From Sordariomycetes sp. S80-01Y (Eukaryota; Ascomycota; Sordariomycetes): DNA of 64,000 bases. Positions 37,031-63,381 of this stretch are shown here, piece after piece. Made by a program: the position numbers and the translations under genes. Where the stretch lies: assembly GCA_037042185.1 (NCBI GenBank), contig JAXQJY010000029.1, positions 806,001 through 870,000 of the forward strand, given 5' to 3'. Below the pieces are notes generated by a model. The model had not been told where the DNA came from and did not search any database. It was given only the letters and a program-made list of their open reading frames with translations. The number at the start of each line of letters is the position of its first letter. Positions within the stretch are counted from its first letter, which is position 1.

Positions 37031-37421
37031 GATTGCGAAAAAATCCTATTCGAATAAGATAGCATCATAAGAATCAACAAATCAATCTATAAAAATGTAC
37101 GCGATAGTCTTCGCAGCTCTCACATGGGAGGGAGAATAATCAACCGTTCAGATAAAGTTGGGAAATTTGGCCGGAAAGCTTTAATCGAAGCCTAGATGAG
37201 CTTTTAATCAGTCATAAAGCCTACCGAAATCATGTGGACTGCATTCTCATGTATATCGCTGCCACGGTGGCAAGCATGAGCACCAATGTTGCGTTGCAGC
37301 TCTCAAAGTCCGTGGGGTTGGTTGCCTCGGCTCAAAATTCAAGGGTACGACACTTACCCCAATTCCATCGCAGCCAGCCTTGAGCAATCAACATCTCCCC
37401 CTTCATCCAAACGATTGCAAG
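37031..37421. other. Short intergenic spacer
   Basis: AT-rich 3' end of the GH3 gene and promoter of the thioesterase-like gene, both on the plus strand. Nothing else is seen. Confidence 0.45.
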
Positions 37422-38447
37422 ATGGCAAGCAACGTCTTGAAGCCGGCCTCCTTACAATCAAGTGCTGCTGTAGAGCGGGTGGACTCAAGAATATACGAGG
37501 CCAACTTGGCCCCGGCTTTCTGTGTGGGCACTGGCAGGTCAACCCATCAAAGTTTCCGCAATCCCAACCAGCTAACACGCCGTCCAGTACCAAATGGTGG
37601 CTATGTTGCTTCGGTATTCCTTAACGTTGCAACTGCGCATCTCGCAGCCCGAGGCCAACCTCATCCCATAAGCGCACATTGGAGCTATCTCGGCCGTACG
37701 CACTCTGGCCGAGCGCTGCTAGTCGTCACTGAAGCGAAGATTGGCCGCGGGACGTCGGTGCTTCACATTGCGCTTCACCAGCAGGGAACCCTCAATAAGG
37801 GACCCTGGATATCTCCAGATTGCCCTGCCGCGGTAGTAGCGTACATTACAAGCGGCAATCTGGATACGGAAGTCGGCGTCACACTGCCAACGCAATGGTC
37901 GCTTGAACATGCGCCACCCTCGGTTGATCTGAGGAAACTGCCTCAGGGCGCTGATCCAAACTGGAAGCGCTCAAAGATCCCAATTTTGAAGAAGGTCCCC
38001 ATGCTCCACAACCTCGAATGGTACGTCAGACAGGACGGGCACGCTCGTCCGACCACTAACGACTACTGGCTGCGCCTGGGAAATGGAGAGAGATTCACGC
38101 AAGCATCTCTCGGGTTCTTGTCTGACGCAGGACCTCCGATGTTAGTTGAGCAGTTTCGACCGACCGATAAGACAGCACCCATTCCGCCAGGGGGCTTTGC
38201 TTATAACAAGGGGTTCTGGTACCCCACCTTGACCATGACGTTGGAGGTGAAGCGTAAGATACCAGCCGACGGTATCGAGTGGATTAGATCGAGGGTGACG
38301 GCTAAGGAGGTGAGGAACGGGAGATATGATGCTGAGGTGCTGATGTTTAGCGAGGGAGGGGAATTGTTGGCCATCAGCACCCACGTCGCTATGGCTATGG
38401 ACATTGAGAGAAATTACTCGGGGCGAGACGTCAAAGCCAAGGTATAG
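37422..38447 (+). CDS. Thioesterase-like (hotdog) superfamily protein
   Basis: Single exon, 341 aa from MASNVLKPAS; the frame is open upstream but the ATG at 37422 is the natural start. Double hotdog layout of the thioesterase-like superfamily (TesB-related): VPNGGYVASVFLNVATAHLA after the first strand set, HPISAHWSYLGRTHSGRALL, then the second half with PPMLVEQFRP and TLTMTLEVKRKI up to LLAISTHVAMAMD. Members hydrolyse or bind acyl-CoAs or act in polyketide release. There is no targeting signal. No polyketide synthase is in the window, so a general acyl-CoA role is the safer reading. Confidence 0.82.
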   Translation: MASNVLKPASLQSSAAVERVDSRIYEANLAPAFCVGTGRSTHQSFRNPNQLTRRPVPNGGYVASVFLNVATAHLAARGQPHPISAHWSYLGRTHSGRALLVVTEAKIGRGTSVLHIALHQQGTLNKGPWISPDCPAAVVAYITSGNLDTEVGVTLPTQWSLEHAPPSVDLRKLPQGADPNWKRSKIPILKKVPMLHNLEWYVRQDGHARPTTNDYWLRLGNGERFTQASLGFLSDAGPPMLVEQFRPTDKTAPIPPGGFAYNKGFWYPTLTMTLEVKRKIPADGIEWIRSRVTAKEVRNGRYDAEVLMFSEGGELLAISTHVAMAMDIERNYSGRDVKAKV

Positions 38448-39240: not shown

Positions 39241-39875
39241 CCACCCGAGGGAGGGCACGTGGTATGAGGATGCTGGTGCTGGTTCCTAGTCAGGGGCGCA
39301 ATGGGAGCCGCTTGTTCCGGCTGCCATTCCCGCTGGCTAGGAACCAGAAGGCTTTTGAAACATTGTTCTTTCTCAGTGCTCTACGGATTCCCCCCTCCCC
39401 GATAGGACCGGGTGATAGCGCGGAGAGCTTCCGACCGGCAATGATCATTCCCCGGTGCTCAGGAGGGGAGGAGCCTGAATCGCTTCCCCGGGACGTGTCG
39501 ATTGGTTACCATAGCCCGGGGTCCATGTTCGTCAGCTGCCCTGTGGCCTCGGATCTGAGTTCCGGCCTACTGTTTCGCGTCACGACATCCCGTACTGCCA
39601 GGTCCTAGCACCAGTCACTCCAAGCGGGAACCTGTGTTCCACAGGACCCAAGATCGGGGAACAAGCTAGAATTACCGGCGATGCAAAGCTAGCGTGGCAC
39701 TTTATGTCGACCATGCCCATGTGATATTAGACTCTGAGATGGACCGCGTGCCTATTTAACCCTGGTCGAGCACCATCCAGGACATTATTTCAGCTTACAT
39801 CACAAGCCAGTTCGAAGCATCACGTCCCGTCCAGCAGATACTTCTGGTCTCTTCTACTCCATCAGAATCCTTAAT
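39241..39875. other. Promoter region of the acyltransferase gene
   Basis: About 630 bp, G+C rich on its left. A 129-codon plus-strand frame at 39219-39608 has no recognisable features and is not accepted. A TATTTAA near 39751-39757 lies about 120 bp before the acyltransferase ATG. Confidence 0.45.
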
Positions 39876-41360
39876 ATGAACTTGCCAAATATTGAAGCCA
39901 TGACTCGGCAGCCTCTGCCACTAGTCAATCACTTTGTGCTGCGACACCACACAGCCGTCGCCCTTTCCTTCGCCCTCCTTGCCGATGCCAACACGGACCG
40001 ACTCGTTGCCGAGCTCCAAGACGCGCTCGATGGCATCGTATCCGAGAACCCCTTTCTTGGAGGGTGGGTTGATGTCGACCTAGACACATCTGTTGTCTCG
40101 CTCCTTTCTCCACATCACGATGCACGTGTTCTCCTGCAAGAGCAGGACAAACCTCGAGGCATGCCATCCACCCACGCAGAGCTTGAGGCCGCGGAATTCC
40201 CCATTAGCGCTTTTGAAGGCCCAGAGCTATTCGAAAAAGTAGCAACCGCGTCGCAAGCCGGTGCCGTCCTCCACGTCCATTACACCATCATCGACGGTGG
40301 GATCGTCCTCTGGTTCTATTTTCACCACATCCTAGCAGATGGCAGCTGCATCCACAACATAATCGAGGATATTGCAGCGCGAACCCGAAGCCCCGATTCC
40401 AAGGTGAATCAGATGCACACATGGCCAAAGGACGGACCACTCCGATCCCTCCTAACACCGACTTCGCTGCATCTGAACAGAGACTCCCACGACAATCCAA
40501 GACCGCCGTGCCTGGAATCCCTCCTAAAGGAATGCCCCGAATTCACCACCATCCACCCCGACGGCATCATCCCGGACGCCTTTCCTCTCAACACCCACAC
40601 CCCGACCAGCCCTCGCCTCCGCAACGTACCCAGCACCGAAGCCAGCTCCACAATGATCTTCGTCTTCAAGACCTCGCATCTCAAAAGCTTCTGCCTTGGC
40701 ATCAAAGAAGCCGCCAACCTCCCGAAACTTCCCTCAGTGCACGCGAGCCTTGGAGCCCTCTCCTGGTGGTGCATACTCAAAGCGAGAAGCTCCTCTGTCG
40801 AAGAGTACACCAGAAGCGGAACTGCTAAGCTTCTTACGCCCGTCAACTGGCGGCCTCGTGCGTTCGTAGACCAGACTGAGGGATTCTATGGGAATGGCGC
40901 CCTGAATGTCATCTGCGAGATGCCGACTTCGACCGTCCAACAGGCTACGTCGGATTTTCATTTTCTCGGACAGATAACGACTACGCTCGAGGAGTCTTTC
41001 ACCCGAGTTAACGAGGATTTTGTGACCAAGCGGCTCGATCTGTTCAAGGTAGCTGATCCAAAGGCGACGTATATTAACATAGACTTCAGCGACGAGGCGC
41101 AGATTGCCTTCAACACGTGGCGGTACTTTATCGCAGACTCGGTGTGGGGGCTACCCGGGCTGGATGTGACTGACAGCAAAGGCAAGCCGGCGTGTGTGAG
41201 GAAGTTCCAGAAGGGGAGCGTAGATGGAGTACTTCTGGTGTTGCCTTCGCGGAGGGACTCGGGGGAAGTGCATCTCATGGTATCATTAAGGCACGGGGCT
41301 GCAGAAGAGCTTTGTAAAGAAAGAGATTGGATGAGATGGGTTGATCGGGTTATTGTGTAA
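39876..41360 (+). CDS. BAHD-type acyltransferase (transferase family, trichothecene 3-O-acetyltransferase-like)
   Basis: Single exon, 494 aa, the normal length. The catalytic HxxxDG motif is His151-Asp155-Gly156 in FHHILADGSC. The second half has the usual channel and cofactor region (LGALSWWCILKARS, LLTPVNWRPR, NGALNVICEMPT); the DFGWG-like structural motif is replaced by the segment SVWGLPGLDVTD. It transfers an acyl group from acyl-CoA to an alcohol or amine of a small molecule. It is cytosolic. Fragments of an O-methyltransferase flank it on the other strand, so it may have inserted into that gene. Substrate unknown. Confidence 0.88.
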   Translation: MNLPNIEAMTRQPLPLVNHFVLRHHTAVALSFALLADANTDRLVAELQDALDGIVSENPFLGGWVDVDLDTSVVSLLSPHHDARVLLQEQDKPRGMPSTHAELEAAEFPISAFEGPELFEKVATASQAGAVLHVHYTIIDGGIVLWFYFHHILADGSCIHNIIEDIAARTRSPDSKVNQMHTWPKDGPLRSLLTPTSLHLNRDSHDNPRPPCLESLLKECPEFTTIHPDGIIPDAFPLNTHTPTSPRLRNVPSTEASSTMIFVFKTSHLKSFCLGIKEAANLPKLPSVHASLGALSWWCILKARSSSVEEYTRSGTAKLLTPVNWRPRAFVDQTEGFYGNGALNVICEMPTSTVQQATSDFHFLGQITTTLEESFTRVNEDFVTKRLDLFKVADPKATYINIDFSDEAQIAFNTWRYFIADSVWGLPGLDVTDSKGKPACVRKFQKGSVDGVLLVLPSRRDSGEVHLMVSLRHGAAEELCKERDWMRWVDRVIV

Positions 41361-56009: not shown

Positions 56010-56027
56010 ACGTTCTGATTAGAACGT
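56010..56027. promoter_or_regulatory. 18-bp inverted repeat, candidate operator
   Basis: ACGTTCT-GATT-AGAACGT: two perfect 7-bp arms around a 4-bp centre, placed between the A tract and the TATA box of the monooxygenase gene. The spacing and symmetry suit a dimeric regulator. Seen directly; role inferred. Confidence 0.45.
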
Positions 56028-56120
56028 ACAGTATTTTGTATATTGGGTGGAGTGACAAGGATGTAAAGTCGGCGTAAAGCCACCGAGTCCCACTCGGAGG
56101 TCACGTACCCGATCGAATCC

Positions 56121-56128
56121 TATATAAG
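56121..56128 (+). promoter_or_regulatory. TATA box close to the monooxygenase start
   Basis: TATATAAG begins only 29 bp before the first ATG (56150). If transcription starts about 30 bp after the TATA box, the first ATG could be outside or at the very end of the mRNA and the second in-frame ATG at 56186 would be used. Confidence 0.55.
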
Positions 56129-56149
56129 TCCTTACGCTCATTATCCAAG

Positions 56150-58059
56150 ATGACTGTGACAGACAAACACAGAAATGACAGCAAGATGCCCCAAAACCTT
56201 ACAGACGTCGTAATTTGTGGCGCTGGCCCGGTGGGCTTGCTTGTCGCCCTAGGCTTGGCCCAGCAAGGAATTGACACTCTTCTAATTGGTTAGACTACCG
56301 ACGACATTCGCACCGGCAGCTAATGATTATCAGAAAAACGCCAGAGACAGGATCAAGAGCGATCGGGCCGCGCTTGCACGTTGTACCCTCGTACATTGGA
56401 GCTTTTGGAGCAGCTGGACGTTACGAGCGAGATGGCACAGGTGGCCTTCACTGGAAGAACCTATGCAGTGTACAAGGACGGCAAGCGACAGACCCGTCAA
56501 ACCTGGCAGTCTGTCCTGCCATATATGGAGAGCAGTTTCCACAGCTATATCATGAACATTCGACAGAAGATGTCAGAGTCTATCTTCGCCAAACGCTACG
56601 CGGCTGATCATGGAAAGGGGATCCAGTATGGGTCAGAGTTGAAGGGATTCAAAGTCGACACATCCCTTTCAGATGGTTGCAATGTCACTGTGTCAATAGT
56701 AGACGAGAACTTGAAAGAGCGAGAGATTCGTTGGTACGTACAATCAGGGTTTCTGGTGTGGCGCTGACCAATCTGAAGCAAGTACCTTGTTGGCGCCGAC
56801 GGCGGACAATCAACAGTTCGATCAGTAGCAGAAGTAGCCATGGAAGGCAACGACACTACGTACAAATGGGTTCGTATCGATGGGCTTATGAGGACAAATA
56901 TGCCTGAGCCTAACCTCATGTTTGCGTCACTAGAGACCAAAGCCCATGGGAATGTTCTCTGGCTGAGGCTCGACAATGACGCCCACCGTATCGGCTTTGC
57001 CTTGACTCCGCGGCTCCAGGAAAAGTATCCATCGGGCCCGACCATGGAGCAAGCCATTGAGGAAGCCAAGCAGTGCCTATCTCCGTTTGAGCTCGACATC
57101 GAACGTGTGGATTGGTGGACTTGTTACAGGTACCTTCCCTGTAAGCTCCCAACTTCCCTACATTTTCTGACTCTCCTAGCATCAAGCAGAAAGTGGCCGA
57201 AACAATGCTCAAGGATAAATTCGTTCTGCTAGCTGGCGATGCTGCGCACACGCATTCCTCGGCCTTCGCCCAAGGCATGAACACTGGCGTCCATGATGCG
57301 ACGAATCTGATTTGGAAGCTCGCCGGAACCCTGAAAGGCTGGTATGGCCCAGGAGTCCTTGCAACGTATGAGTCTGAGCGTCGAGAGGCCGCCAAAAAGC
57401 TCATCAGTATCGACCGACTTGCTGCTGCTGCGGTTTCTGGGGATGTGCCTCTAGAGTTTAAAGCGCTTGGACTGTCCTTGGACGAGGCAACTCGAAGCAT
57501 CTTTCAAAAGAACCTAACTTATACAGTCGGACTAGGCATCAGCTACGAAGCATCAATCTTGAACCAAGAGCCTCATGCCACTACCCTTGTTTCTGGCACA
57601 CGGAGCCCGGACGCTCTGTTGCACACTCCAGGGCCTGCCCTGCCAGTTCGACTTCACGATATTCTACACCGCTACAGCAAAGGAAGGTGGAGTCTGCTCG
57701 TGTTCGCCGGTTACCCACATCAAACAAAAAAGCAGATCACCTCTTTGCGCTCCAAATTGACCTCGGGCGGGGGCCTGAAACGCTGGTCTCCGATCTATCA
57801 GAAAGCCACCGTGATGGTCGGTATCACTGGCTGCGTGTGGGACACCTTTGACGGACCTGCCATAGGCAATCTGTATTTCGATAAGGATGGCATGGCACAC
57901 AGCCGGTTCGGCGTCTACCCTGACAATGGCGCTATCCTTGTCATCCGCCCTGACGGTATTTTTGCATTCGCGGCCGCATTAGACGAGCTGGACGTGATCG
58001 AGGAGTATTTTCAGGGTCTTGTGCTTGATCAGTCCGCCACTGGCAACATTTGCGGTTAA
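56150..58059 (+). CDS. FAD-dependent aromatic (phenol-type) monooxygenase
   Basis: Exons 56150-56288, 56334-56733, 56779-57129 and 57180-58059 join to 589 aa; introns are 45-50 bp. A TATA box very near suggests the start may instead be the ATG at 56186 (MPQNLTDVV, 577 aa). Class A flavoprotein hydroxylase motifs are intact: GAGPVGLLVALGLAQQG (GxGxxG), the DG motif in YLVGADGGQSTVR, and the GD motif in VLLAGDAAHTHSSAFAQGMN. The C-terminal 170 residues resemble the thioredoxin-like domain of phenol-hydroxylase-type enzymes (LPVRLHDILHRYSKGRWSLL). It hydroxylates an aromatic ring using NAD(P)H and oxygen. Beside a PABA-type synthase and an O-methyltransferase, an aminobenzoate-related substrate is a reasonable guess, not shown. 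Confidence 0.9.
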
Positions 58060-58849
58060 GAGTTGACATAGGGCCACTGGAATTGGAAATCTTATTGTGC
58101 GAGACCATGCTTTACAGCTGATGCTATCCTCTGGCCCGTCATGAAAAATCACACTTTTGACTCGGCGAATCATGGTCATCAATGGTTCAAAAGTGTCTCA
58201 GAGTCTTTCAGGCCGGAGAGGTGACTATGGGCTAGAGGACAGGACCGTCCGCGATCGCAGTGCCATAATACTTCTGTCGATTTGCTAGAGCCGGGTAGAA
58301 AAGTACTTTGTCGTTTGCAACGTCAAGGTGGATCAAAGCTCCCATTACTACGTTGTGGTGTTTGCTGACTGCATAAGCGGAGGCATTATGCATGTCTCAT
58401 ACAGAGCAGCTCCATAAAACCCGCCGACCGATACATCACCACCTGGCAGCTCCGACCACAAGAGCAGCAGCGGTCCTCCGGCCGTCGGAACCTCCGAGAA
58501 GGATTTTAGTGATGATTCTTCGGCGGCGCTGAATGCTGCTTGGGAGCCTCGGGACCTTGAGTCAACATGTGCATGGTCGTTGCGCTTGATCAAGTGGCTG
58601 TATGTCTGGAGCATAGCGAAATTGGAGTTATCAGACTGCATGAAGATCCCTAGATTCCTTTCATTCTATCATTTGTCCGCTGAATCTTTGCGCAATCAGG
58701 TATACGCCCGCGTCGACATACCTCTTTAAGCCTGCCGAATGATCAAAGGAAGACTCTGACTAGACTCTGTCACTAATTAGAAACAAGTTGGTGAAGACAG
58801 ATATTTTGTTCTTTTTGTGTATTCTTATCCGCGTTACAGTATCCTCAAC
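58060..58849. other. Intergenic within the candidate cluster
   Basis: About 790 bp between two plus-strand genes. A minus-strand frame at 58348-58641 (97 codons, with GGPLLLLWSELPGGDVSVGG) has somewhat protein-like text and could be a remnant exon, but it has no family match. The right end is the promoter of the synthase gene. Confidence 0.4.
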
Positions 58850-61417
58850 ATGGGCTCCCAGGTTGATATTCCGCCGCACAACCAAGGGCCTAGGATCTTG
58901 TTTATCGACGCATTCGACTCTTTTTCGAACAACATTGTGGGAATGCTCCAACAATGTCTGGGTACAGAGGTCGTTGTCGTTCATATGAACAACTCCACAG
59001 TGTCTGACAACTTGGAAATGACCTTGGCCGCGTTCGAAGCGGTAGTCGTCGGTCCCGGTCCAGGACATCCCGGAAATCCTCAAGATATCGGCTTCATTGA
59101 CAGGCTATGGAACCTTTCGGAACACATGTTGATACCAGTTTTGGGAATTTGCCTTGGATTTCAATCTTTGTGCCTCAGTCAAGGGGCAAATGTCGAGAAA
59201 CTGCTACAAGCCCGTCACGGAATCGTCAGCAGACCCGAACATGTGAAAGACGACATATTCCAAGATGTTGAAGATCTTGAGACTACGCAATACCACTCCC
59301 TATATGCAGACATAGGAAGATTAGGGTCTCCTGAAGACAATGCCTGGAAACCAACAAACAAGTGTCCCTCGCTTCGTCCACTTGCGTGGGACCTCAGCGA
59401 CAAGCTCAACGGTCCAATTCTTATGGCTGTTCGACATACACATAGGCCGTTCTGGGGCGTCCAGTTCCATCCCGAATCAATATGCACGTCTCTTTCCGGT
59501 CGAAATATTATTTCCAACTGGTGGAAAGAAGCGCTTACGTGGTCATACCAGAGGCAGAGGCGTGTGAGTGAGCTGCCAAACAAGTTGTTCCCAGTGCAAG
59601 AACCACCCACAACGCTCAATGGACGACTCAATGATTATGATGAGCGTTCCCACCTCGCCAATTGCTTGCGATCAATTTCAGGGCCAAAAGACATATTTGT
59701 GCGTTGGGGAAGACACAGTATAGGCTCTGTCACCGCAACGAGCTTGGTGGAAGCTCTTGGATTGAGCCAAGACGAGATCATCCTATTAGACCGGCAAGAC
59801 CACGCGCGAGGTCGCTTCAGCATTTTGGGCCTCGTAATTCCTGAAAAGACCATGAAAATATCCTATAAAGTCACCGAGAAGAAACTACGGTACGGAACGT
59901 CCACCACAAAGATGCACACCGCGTCTATTAGAACGATCGAGGAGGTTTGGCCAATATTGCAAGAGGCGCTGGATTTGCACGACCCGCGACAGGGCAGCTC
60001 CTCTAGAGCTTCAACTCCTGGATCAAACAGCGAGTATAGCGGGCTAGACAGTTTCGTTGCTGGTCATCCGCCATTGGAGAGCCCTTTTTGGGGCGGCCTG
60101 ATGGGTTATATCTCATACGAAGCAGGCTTGGAGACAATCAATGTCGACTTGCACAAATCTTGCACGCCAGCGGGCATCCCCGACATCAATTTCGCCTTTA
60201 TTCATCGAAGCATCGTAATAGACCATCAGAAAGAGCAAATATTCATCCAGTCACTTTTGCCGGGTGATTGGGCTTGGATATTGAATGTTGGAAGGACCAT
60301 CGATGACATGACTAGCCGAAACGAGCTTCACAACGGCGTGGAGCCTGGTAAAGAGTCTTCTTTGGATGCTAAAGAAGAGGCTGCTTTGACCGCAGCGCTG
60401 GCTGACGTCGATATCCAGCGGCCTACAGAGACGGCCTACAGGTCCAAAGTCCTGAAATGCCAGGAGTTCTTGGCGTCCGGAGACTCCTACGAGCTCTGTC
60501 TCACCGATGAGACTGAGATCAGAATACCTGAAGCCAACGCACTGAACCCTTGGAGCTTCTACAAGCGACTCCGTGCCAACAACTCGGCCCCATTTGGTGC
60601 CTTCATGAGGCTGTCGGATGTTACGGTTGCTGGCAGTAGTCCAGAGCTCTTCCTGAAATGGGACAGGGACGGGCGGTGTCAGTTCCGACCCATAAAAGGC
60701 ACGGTGAAGAAGGGGCCTCGCATGACGCGGGAGCTCGCACATGAAATTCTAGGCAGCTCTAAAGAACGCGCGGAAAACCTTATGATTGTTGATCTCATTC
60801 GACACGACCTGTGCGGGGTTGTTGGGACTGACAACTCTTGGGTATCCGACCTTATGGTCATTGAGGAGTATGAAACTGTTTATCAGCTCGTCTCAGTGAT
60901 TGAGGGACAGCTACCTATGAGGGGATCCGACACCAACGGCCCACGGGGCTTAGACGTATTGAAAGCATCTCTGCCGCCAGGGTCAATGACTGGGGCACCT
61001 AAGAAGCGTTCTTGTGAGATACTCAGGGATATAGAGTGTCGTCCGAGAGGTATTTACTCCGGTGTTCTGGGATACATGGACGTGGGCGGCTCGGGAAGCT
61101 TCTCTGTGGTGATTCGCACAGCACTACGAAACGACAAACGCAGCGACCAGCGACAGCCACATGATCAAAATGGCACGAACGGGCACCCTGAATCAAACGG
61201 TATGCCCACATCAAATGGAACCCCAAAGGGGATTTCAAATGGCGCTTCAAACGGGCGGGGTCTGAATGGAGGAACGAGGAGGCCTGTGACAGAGACTTGG
61301 CGCGTCGGAGCCGGCGGCGCAGTCACTATCCAGAGTACAGATGAAGGTGAGTTTCTGGAGATGGAGACGAAAGCATCTAGTGTTCTGGGAGCTCTCTTTC
61401 CGAGTGGCTCAGCTTAG
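58850..61417 (+). CDS. Bifunctional 4-amino-4-deoxychorismate (PABA) synthase, PabA-PabB fusion
   Basis: Single exon, 855 aa from MGSQVDIPPH. The N-terminal class I glutamine amidotransferase has its triad: Cys101 in GICLGFQ, His207 and Glu209 in VQFHPES. The C-terminal chorismate-binding domain runs from about residue 440 and has ERAENLMIVDLIRHDL, PPGSMTGAPKKR and RVGAGGAVTIQSTDEGEF. Lys616 in PIKGT is the residue that marks aminodeoxychorismate synthases (anthranilate synthases have PIAGT), so the product should be 4-amino-4-deoxychorismate. An Asn/Gly/Ser-rich insert of about 35 residues (near 770-805) splits the chorismate domain. It may serve folate synthesis, but its place next to a hydroxylase and a methyltransferase suggests a second, dedicated copy. 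No aminodeoxychorismate lyase is visible in the window. Confidence 0.93.
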   Translation: MGSQVDIPPHNQGPRILFIDAFDSFSNNIVGMLQQCLGTEVVVVHMNNSTVSDNLEMTLAAFEAVVVGPGPGHPGNPQDIGFIDRLWNLSEHMLIPVLGICLGFQSLCLSQGANVEKLLQARHGIVSRPEHVKDDIFQDVEDLETTQYHSLYADIGRLGSPEDNAWKPTNKCPSLRPLAWDLSDKLNGPILMAVRHTHRPFWGVQFHPESICTSLSGRNIISNWWKEALTWSYQRQRRVSELPNKLFPVQEPPTTLNGRLNDYDERSHLANCLRSISGPKDIFVRWGRHSIGSVTATSLVEALGLSQDEIILLDRQDHARGRFSILGLVIPEKTMKISYKVTEKKLRYGTSTTKMHTASIRTIEEVWPILQEALDLHDPRQGSSSRASTPGSNSEYSGLDSFVAGHPPLESPFWGGLMGYISYEAGLETINVDLHKSCTPAGIPDINFAFIHRSIVIDHQKEQIFIQSLLPGDWAWILNVGRTIDDMTSRNELHNGVEPGKESSLDAKEEAALTAALADVDIQRPTETAYRSKVLKCQEFLASGDSYELCLTDETEIRIPEANALNPWSFYKRLRANNSAPFGAFMRLSDVTVAGSSPELFLKWDRDGRCQFRPIKGTVKKGPRMTRELAHEILGSSKERAENLMIVDLIRHDLCGVVGTDNSWVSDLMVIEEYETVYQLVSVIEGQLPMRGSDTNGPRGLDVLKASLPPGSMTGAPKKRSCEILRDIECRPRGIYSGVLGYMDVGGSGSFSVVIRTALRNDKRSDQRQPHDQNGTNGHPESNGMPTSNGTPKGISNGASNGRGLNGGTRRPVTETWRVGAGGAVTIQSTDEGEFLEMETKASSVLGALFPSGSA

Positions 61418-61937
61418 ACTACCGGTAGGCCGTTGGCTGAAGACACTTAAAGTCCAGAAGTTACGTATATGCAGAATTGAGCATGGTGTATCCAGCTCTC
61501 CACTTGTCTATTCATGCGCACAGAAGACAACATGTTCGTCAGGGGATTCTCACTATGATGATGTAGATATCTTGCGAAGAACATTTTCAAAGCGCCGACG
61601 ACCCGTCTTGCTCTCAACTGCTTCCAATTACTATGGTATTCAATGCCAATGTGGTCAGATCGACAGAAGAATGACCGCGCGGCCCAGATTGCTTCGAATA
61701 ATACATCTTGAGGTTGTCAGAGGGGTTGCTCCAGCGTAATCGTCAGAGATTGTAATGAAAGACTCGCTAAGATTATTCACTTCCTATCACTTCACAACCT
61801 CATGTCCCGCTAAATATTCCTAACTGGCAGAGTCCATAATAAAGAAAAGGATTGCTTCAACAAGAACACTGAAGCATTCGTGCAACTGGGGCCGACCCAA
61901 GACAAGTGCTACAATGTTGCTGAAACCCCTTCTTTCA
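61418..61937. other. Convergent 3' spacer
   Basis: About 520 bp between the stop codons of the synthase (plus) and the O-methyltransferase (minus). The 132-codon frame 61341-61739 mostly overlaps the synthase end and is not a gene. Confidence 0.45.
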
Positions 61938-63381
61938 CTATATCTCACACTCAATAAGGCTGTTTCCATTTACATGTCGCGGGTACCAAATTTTAACAAC
62001 CTTGAGCCCAGCGCGGGTGATCAGGTCCTCCCAGTGCGAGTGAGTCCGCTCAAGAGCGCTCAACATGGTCGCCATGACAATGTCGGTGCTCGTGGCCTCC
62101 CAGTGAGCACCAGTCTCCGGGATCACGTTGTCGTTTATGAGAACCTTGCTATATCCTGGCTTCATGGCCAACGTAATGTTTGAGAGTATCTTGATGCAAG
62201 TTTCGTCGGGCCAGTCATGCAGGATGGAATGTAGATAGTAAGCCCGAGCGTCTATAGTTAAGATTAATAGGGTGTGATATAAGGGGGGGTGTCAGGAACT
62301 CACGCTCGACAGGTTGCTTGTTGTTGAAATCATGGGGCATCTTCTCGATACGACTGCTCAACTGAGTGATGTTGCTGAGAACCATGGGCAGATCTTGTAA
62401 CACTAAGCGCCCTGGGATGTCTGGATGAACGCGCAACAAGTCTTCCAGATCATGTCCAATAGACCCCCCAACGTCTACTAGAAAAGCCGAACCCTCGGAC
62501 TCGTCGAAGCCGTCGATGAGGTTTTCCTGGATCGGATAAAAGCCTGGATCCACCCATCGGGGACGTCCTAGACTATAGGCCTGCATATGCAAGGCGAATC
62601 TGTATCCATCAGGCTGCCCCTGGATGTAGTCAAGATAGTTTTGCTCAGTCTTTAGTGCATCTTGGTAATTGCCGTGGAAGGGGTCACTGGGGGCTTTCCA
62701 GTTGTTCTTGGCAGCGAACGTATGAAAGTTGGCATATGCTGGCAGGGCACACTTGGTTCTGGGAAGCCTTAGTAACAGTCAATATCCTGCCGGATAGATG
62801 AGACCAACACGACCGGGTACGTTTCACCTATCATTGGAACCGACAAGGCTTTCGTAAAGTGGGTGCGCTCGTACGTGTCAGGCGCGAGCTCCTTGAGATA
62901 TCCAACTGCAGCGAGGTGGCGCATCAGTCGTGCTAAGATGATATCAGTCTTTACGCTCGTTGGACTTTGCTCGGAGCCTTACACATTAGAGCAGGATCGA
63001 CTCCCACAGCTTCGCCCAAGTGAGTCGCTTTGAAAGGGCCATCATGCTCGCTCAAGTACTTGAAAGAGCCTGTCTCTATGCCGCAACTGAGAGCAAGAAG
63101 GGTAGAAGGCTGTGAATGTTAAATTTTCTGGACTCTCTGTGAAACAAGGGAGGCGGCTCATAACGCACATCAGCATAGCAATGCCGCATCATTGTGTCCC
63201 GGGGCGTCTCCAACGCGAGAATCAGCTTTCGTGTCGCATTGACCAGCTGAATGCGAGCATCCTCTTCAGAACCAGCCAAGAAACTTTTACCGAGGTTTCC
63301 AACCTCTTCGATAAGGGCGGGAACAGCCCGGGAGTCGTATGCTGTCGCATCAACTGAATGTTTGGTGTTGAACCCAGCCAT
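61938..63381 (-). CDS. SAM-dependent O-methyltransferase (plant-type, winged-helix dimer)
   Basis: Five exons on the minus strand, 63381-63169, 63109-62983, 62932-62821, 62767-62304 and 62251-61938, join to 409 aa; introns are 50-59 bp and all phases close. The N-terminal dimerisation part is IQLVNATRKLILALETPRD and the winged helix RLMRHLAAVGYLKELAPDTY. The SAM motif is FLVDVGGSIGHDLEDLL (Asp249), then LVLQDLPMVL and the catalytic His317 in LHSILHDWPDE, with VLINDNVIPETG after it. It methylates a hydroxyl of a small aromatic compound. It converges on the PABA-type synthase and lies two genes from an aromatic hydroxylase, so it may methylate the hydroxyl that enzyme installs. Intact, in contrast to the broken copy at 38.7-41.6 kb. 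Confidence 0.92.

Follow-up and report, generated by a model that had tools for sequence, protein, structure and literature searches.

Eight neighboring genes at the right-hand end of the DNA analyzed here, seven of them with intact models and one, the regulator, with a provisional model, occupy about 23.5 kb and, in the reading that we narrowly prefer, constitute one cluster that makes an arylamine-polyketide hybrid. It is probable that they form a single cluster in which a fused 4-amino-4-deoxychorismate synthase (PabAB) acts as the biosynthetic gene for the arylamine part; that the arylamine N-acetyltransferase (NAT) of the cluster joins the polyketide to the amine is, judging from sequence, an evenly balanced proposition. 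The window, meaning the whole stretch of 64,000 nucleotides that was analyzed, corresponds to positions 806001-870000 of contig C12 in a genome of 30.87 Mb and 16 contigs. Its right edge cuts the cluster, about 15.6 kb of which lies beyond on the same contig; coordinates are continued past the edge, and the C12 position is the window position plus 806000. The cluster thus spans 56150-79615 and contains the following genes (splice sites were picked by eye from frame, GT-AG borders and family likeness, without transcripts):

56150-58059, plus strand: FAD aromatic monooxygenase of the phenol-hydroxylase family, 589 aa; four exons (56150-56288, 56334-56733, 56779-57129, 57180-58059) with three GT-AG introns of 45, 45 and 50 nt
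58850-61417, plus strand: PabA-PabB fusion (4-amino-4-deoxychorismate synthase), 855 aa, no intron
61938-63381, minus strand: O-methyltransferase (Methyltransf_2), 409 aa; five exons (63381-63169, 63109-62983, 62932-62821, 62767-62304, 62251-61938) with four GT-AG introns
about 65031-66261 (continued), plus strand: Zn2Cys6 regulator (PF00172, 8.7e-06), provisional splice
66388-68184 (continued), minus strand: P450, 598 aa, intronless (PF00067, 1.8e-33)
68621-69796 (continued), plus strand: stand-alone enoyl reductase, LovC-like, 352 aa, three exons
69842-70854 (continued), minus strand: NAT, 320 aa, exons 70854-70463 and 70412-69842
71623-79615 (continued), plus strand: highly reducing polyketide synthase (HR-PKS), LovB-like, 2603 aa, exons 71623-71835, 71897-73526, 73587-78337 and 78398-79615

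The preliminary description of this DNA had recognized the first three genes as adjacent and intact, and their open frames and Pfam matches confirm it; the span that it gave, 56010-63381, ends correctly but starts 140 bases before the ATG chosen here. It had also reported no PKS or NRPS backbone and suspected that standard cluster finders could miss the locus. Extending the sequence to the right of 64 kb, as it had suggested, reveals the remaining 15.6 kb and overturns both statements: the HR-PKS starts 7.6 kb past the right edge, accompanied by the LovC-like reductase and the NAT, and a PKS-based cluster finder should therefore see the cluster. What stands is the idea of an aminochorismate-derived metabolite cluster, in the sense of secondary metabolism around a duplicated PABA synthase; the free p-anisidine-like product once suggested is less likely than an acylated arylamine.

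Both borders can be placed with some likelihood. On the right, the likely border is marked by what appear to be glycerol-metabolism genes following the PKS, namely those for a FAD-dependent oxidoreductase (DAO), a major intrinsic protein and an FGGY kinase; on the left, two long genes without a Pfam match and an F-box/WD40 gene likely mark the other. Farther out, 15-19 kb left of the cluster and with unrelated-looking genes between, are an acyl-CoA thioesterase-like gene (37218-38447, plus strand) and a trichothecene 3-O-acetyltransferase-like gene (39738-41360, plus strand). Within the cluster, three leftover open reading frames gave no Pfam match. The G+C content is 52.0% in the cluster, 53.2% at window positions 1-54300 and 58.7% to the right (C12 was examined over continued coordinates 56150-90000), with the step near 80000, where the PKS ends. 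Five promoter stretches of the cluster yielded no convincing motif in common: the best spaced CGG/TCG pair occurs in four of the five, close to background, and two 7-mers are present in all five, with no 8- or 9-mer in at least four.

The cluster PabAB carries GATase and Chorismate_bind in one chain, both above their cut-offs, and scores 634.3 bits against the NCBIfam model TIGR01823 for fungal PabB (cut-off 442.55). The lysine noted earlier is confirmed at exactly that place (Lys616 in PIKGT), and Cys101, His207 and Glu209 of the amidotransferase are present. Judged by domains, family model and catalytic residues, the protein is a fungal aminodeoxychorismate synthase. It is also a second copy. 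There are three Chorismate_bind genes in the genome, on C13, on C2 and in the window; that on C13 is TrpE-like, as judged by reading its sequence, and the other two are PabA-PabB fusions above the TIGR01823 cut-off, so the preliminary description's concern that the genome might hold only one PABA synthase falls away. The two fusions lie on different contigs and are 56% identical, and neither a PKS nor a NAT was found among the open reading frames scanned around the C2 copy.

Among 115 other rows, 162 columns reach a conservation of 97% or more; the window PabAB agrees with 161 of them and the C2 copy with all 162. The sole departure is Ser315 to Arg, within the LLDS motif: 115 of 118 rows have Ser at this position, the three exceptions, all with Arg, being the window copy, P0001 and P0002, and the change is absent from the other PabAB copies that share contigs with P450 or NAT relatives. 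We take Ser315 to correspond to the serine of the TrpE LLES effector-binding motif, where changes relieve feedback inhibition; by this analogy, the cluster PabAB may be deregulated. In a tree of the 118 rows, built by a quick method with SH-aLRT support only, the window copy groups with P0001-P0004 and the C2 copy with P0043, P0027 and P0029; the linked PabABs are not a single clade, and the C2 copy falls within the same large clade. P0002 is about 90% identical to the window copy and P0043 about 90% to the C2 copy, which suggests that one near relative may keep both. The nearest named matches are presumably from Sordariomycetes and Dothideomycetes.

A scan of the three long exons of the PKS gave the domain order KS-AT-DH-MT-ER-KR-ACP, and the protein stops after the ACP without a release domain. 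The best PDB match of its long exon is LovB (7cpx, 4.1e-125), and that of the stand-alone reductase is LovC (3b6z, 4.9e-52). The cofactor motif of the internal ER reads VLAHGLSSGMLHAAL; considering that the TGQ/VGQ turn is kept in all four other HR-PKS ER domains (eight loci of the same genome were fetched, four with an ER match), this ER is probably dead and would be served in trans, as in LovB/LovC. Its domain order, the motif loss and the LovC-like neighbor thus identify a LovB-type HR-PKS with a trans-acting ER, whose own ER has presumably lost activity. The likeness to LovB/LovC comprises the best PDB matches of both proteins, the methyltransferase domain, the degenerate ER and the separate ER gene. 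Here, however, PabAB, NAT and an aromatic monooxygenase lie alongside, and no thioesterase or LovD-like transacylase was recognized in the cluster. Elsewhere, PKS dehydratase matches (PF21089) number 13 in this genome, on C1, C5 and C8-C14, and the fungus is thus rich in highly reducing PKS genes.

We know of no HR-PKS that makes an aromatic ring, yet a phenol-hydroxylase-type monooxygenase and an arylamine transferase are present; the ring should therefore come from PabAB, which is the only gene found in the cluster able to feed an aromatic amine. The monooxygenase has no internal stop in its reading frame and matches PF01494 (1.1e-61) and the phenol hydroxylase C-terminal domain PF07976 (7.6e-15); phenol 2-monooxygenase 8r2u is its best PDB match (1.1e-50), followed by 1foh and then by VibO 7yj0 (2.5e-43). 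The O-methyltransferase matches PF00891 at 3.7e-20, and the introns of both genes are GT-AG, 45-59 nt long. A 4-aminobenzoate hydroxylase of Agaricus bisporus was reportedly described by Tsuji in 1986, and the preliminary description drew the likeness to this FAD monooxygenase acting on PABA. The gene here belongs to the phenol-hydroxylase family (PF01494 plus PF07976); that it performs a decarboxylating hydroxylation of PABA is somewhat less likely than not.

The preliminary description had placed a missing lyase or mutase possibly beyond the right edge, and neither appeared there. Class-IV aminotransferases have eight matches genome-wide, none near the cluster, and a dedicated lyase gene is absent from the cluster. 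The aminodeoxychorismate lyase model, applied to seven of these matches (all but L022), hit just one, L015, with 99.7 bits, well short of its cut-off of 308, and no lyase is assigned. The only chorismate mutase (CM_2) match that the genome gave lies on contig C11; we set aside the PapABC route to p-aminophenylalanine, for which a dedicated mutase would be expected. Two further ideas were dropped: PABA as a PKS starter, as in bacterial polyenes, since the PKS has no ligase or loading domain, and free p-anisidine as the end product, since the PKS, the LovC-like reductase and the NAT occupy the same stretch.

We propose the following sequence of events. With the cluster PabAB, more 4-amino-4-deoxychorismate would become available for conversion to PABA by a housekeeping lyase. 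The FAD monooxygenase would hydroxylate the ring, a step that might also remove the carboxyl group and leave a 4-aminophenol, and the O-methyltransferase would cap a hydroxyl. Meanwhile, the PKS and its trans-acting ER would build a reduced, C-methylated chain. The NAT cysteine would accept this chain from the PKS (or from CoA) and transfer it to the aryl amine, which would both release the chain and yield an N-acyl arylamine; finally, the P450 would oxidize the product.

In fungi, a highly reducing PKS often lacks a release domain at its end and relies on partner enzymes. Apart from the PKS itself, the domains found in the cluster point to just one acyl-transferring enzyme, the NAT; with no PKS release domain and no other acyltransferase recognized, it is the natural candidate for chain transfer to the amine. 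It scores 75.6 bits against PF00797 (cut-off 22.8; 6.7e-21) and has the triad Cys84, His133 and Asp148, which together make it, by sequence, a member of the arylamine N-acetyltransferase family; the genome holds one other NAT, on C10. In an alignment of its family (23 rows, nine full-length), the catalytic Cys is present in all nine full-length rows and the His and Asp stretch in seven, the stretch being missing from the gene models P0245 and P0246. The residues flanking the Cys are Val and Asp in eight of the nine, and Tyr and Met in the C10 NAT.

Such flanking positions matter in a related setting. The RifF and GdmF enzymes of ansamycin clusters are likewise NAT-fold proteins in a PKS cluster without a release domain, with an aryl amine as acceptor. 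GdmF is set apart by its Cys-flanking residues and a loose interdomain region, the flanking positions are tied to the wider cleft of amide synthases, and GdmF has lost both the Arg that NATs carry four residues before the Cys (-4) and the (I/V)(P/A)FENL motif (PMC11903869, in part). In the cluster NAT family, that Arg is kept in six of nine full-length rows, the window NAT included, and P(F/L)ENL in nine of nine; the window NAT reads RGGVC and VPLENL. Because these features are retained, the enzyme classes by sequence as a fungal NAT outside the RifF/GdmF amide synthase subfamily. In the PDB it matches an ordinary NAT best (7qi3, 5.9e-30) and GdmF weakly (1.4e-4). It also differs from GdmF in length (320 against 263 aa) and from both RifF and GdmF in that its PKS is fungal and iterative and that it would link two molecules rather than close a ring. 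An AlphaFold model of the Aphanocladium album homologue P0241 is of low confidence (mean pLDDT 62.9, pTM 0.38).

With the fungal FDB2/NAT1 N-malonyltransferase and NAT3, the cluster NAT shares the family, the triad and the best PDB match 7qi3; unlike them, it is tied to PabAB and P450 in several fungi and belongs to a family with Val-Cys-Asp in eight of nine rows. In Fusarium, NAT1 is an N-malonyltransferase and NAT3 an N-acetyltransferase, and Table 1 of the same source lists 16 fungal NATs in predicted biosynthetic clusters, many of them, like ours, in a type I PKS cluster (PMC11213898, in part). Neither "aminobenzo" nor "chorismate" occurs in the main text of that paper.

Searching about 5.8 billion proteins with PabAB, P450 and NAT gave 1937, 206 and 23 matches, respectively, of which the best 120, the best 120 and all 23 were compared. 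A shared contig was taken as an identical size of the longest contig in two lists, a proxy in which spacing is known only from locus tags. Among the matches listed, nine contigs are common to at least two lists. One, of 1205685 bases, is a 99% identical record that is probably the same species as the source, leaving eight others:

PabAB, P450 and NAT: contigs of 31504 and 66127 bases, the latter from Aphanocladium album
PabAB and NAT: contigs of 67028 and 735034 bases, the latter from Xylariaceae sp. FL1272
PabAB and P450: contigs of 148510, 158157, 521615 and 1205685 bases, that of 521615 from Byssothecium circinans
P450 and NAT: contig of 552687 bases, from Diatrype stigma

NAT relatives thus share contigs with PabAB on four contigs of other fungi. 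The A. album tags PWT90_02932 (PabAB), PWT90_02934 (NAT) and PWT90_02935 (P450) all lie within four numbers, and those of D. stigma, SLS62_003537 (NAT) and SLS62_003539 (P450), are nearly adjacent. As far as contig sizes and tags can tell, the relatives of PabAB, P450 and NAT are in conserved physical linkage, and the preliminary description's reservation that the neighborhood might not be conserved does not apply to PabAB with P450 and NAT. Eight of the 62 listed PabAB rows on contigs of at least 30 kb are linked, the same-species row included: 7 of 20 at ranks 1-35, 1 of 16 at ranks 36-64 and 0 of 26 at ranks 65-120. Rows without a link may lack the cluster, or the link may be masked by incomplete lists and intron-split NAT genes.

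The function of the NAT can be read in another way, namely that the cluster and its arylamine are as proposed, but the NAT only N-acetylates or N-malonylates the amine, as a cap or for self-protection in the manner of FDB2-type fungal NATs, while a different enzyme, perhaps a housekeeping one, releases or attaches the polyketide. We regard this as unlikely. It accords with the retained NAT hallmarks, with an ordinary NAT as the best PDB match, with the activities of Fusarium NAT1 and NAT3 (PMC11213898, in part) and with the thioesterase-like and acetyltransferase-like genes to the left; however, the F-box/WD40 gene and the two Pfam-less long genes separate that pair from the cluster, in which no further domain for release, acyl-transferring or hydrolytic, was found, and the residues beside the catalytic Cys are altered in the NAT family. 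A further reading, that two separate neighbors happen to adjoin, a small PabAB-monooxygenase-methyltransferase route beside an unrelated PKS cluster, could appeal to the gap of about 1.6 kb between the O-methyltransferase and the regulator. It is very improbable, considering that PabAB relatives are linked in several fungi to the P450 and NAT of the PKS side, and that the three A. album tags are so close together.

The role of PabAB itself could also differ. The lovastatin cluster carries an HMG-CoA reductase as a resistance copy, and by the same logic the product here might inhibit 4-amino-4-deoxychorismate synthase, with the cluster carrying an insensitive target. In its favor, a duplicated primary-metabolism enzyme adjoins a LovB/LovC-like PKS, fungal clusters are well known to carry resistance copies (PMC12616698, in part), natural PabB inhibitors exist in the abyssomicins (PMC6100094, in part), and the window PabAB departs at one near-invariant place, Ser315 to Arg. 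The second copy within the cluster that self-resistance calls for is present, and it fits the biosynthetic reading too. Under self-resistance, however, neither the arylamine-type NAT nor the aromatic monooxygenase would have an aromatic amine to act on, and the PabAB-NAT linkage on four contigs of other fungi would go unexplained; moreover, the Ser315 change is confined to 3 of 118 rows, the window copy and the two relatives nearest to it, and does not extend to the other linked copies. We consider it quite improbable as the role of PabAB. If it were true, an inhibitor of folate-precursor synthesis would be the product to expect.

Returning to the hybrid that we prefer, a broader proposal can be offered, though tentatively and at somewhat less than even likelihood: that a fungal NAT frees an HR-PKS chain by aminolysis, the nucleophile being a PABA-derived arylamine that a cluster-dedicated PabAB supplies. 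Such an enzyme would be a fungal equivalent, acting between molecules, of the ansamycin amide synthases; it would have evolved from ordinary fungal NATs, would be present across several ascomycete lineages and would give a class of N-acyl arylamine polyketides. If true, NAT release fed by a duplicated PABA synthase would enlarge fungal polyketide chemistry by an amide-forming release and an aromatic-amine building block. For genome mining, the PabAB-NAT-P450 linkage is a plain signature. The individual parts are of known kinds; as to the combination of PabAB, NAT and HR-PKS, no description of a fungal cluster with all three was found in the open-access literature.

Among known products, the ochraspergillic acids of Aspergillus ochraceus (penicillic acid plus aminobenzoate) also join a fungal polyketide to o- or p-aminobenzoate; their junction differs in being an amine bond, the authors suspect bacterial aminobenzoate, and no dedicated cluster is described for them (PMC6410417, in the part drawn on here). 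Isariotins (PMC7582479, in part) and obscurolides were considered as products, and nothing connects either to the cluster.

Aphanocladium album is, we assume, the same fungus as Lecanicillium aphanocladii. No PABA-derived amide appears among the L. aphanocladii metabolites in the portion of PMC13071199 considered. The A. album proteins are 71% (NAT, P0241), 53% (PabAB, P0035) and 52% (P450) identical to those of the cluster, so the parts have, by these identities, not evolved in step and have different rates or histories. In the PabAB tree (SH-aLRT only), P0012, P0014, P0015, P0018, P0033, P0038 and P0071 form a group that includes Byssothecium, Massarina, Periconia and Lophiostoma and sits inside a clade rich in what we take to be Sordariomycetes, away from the group with other presumed Pleosporales; transfer or old paralogy could explain this placement.
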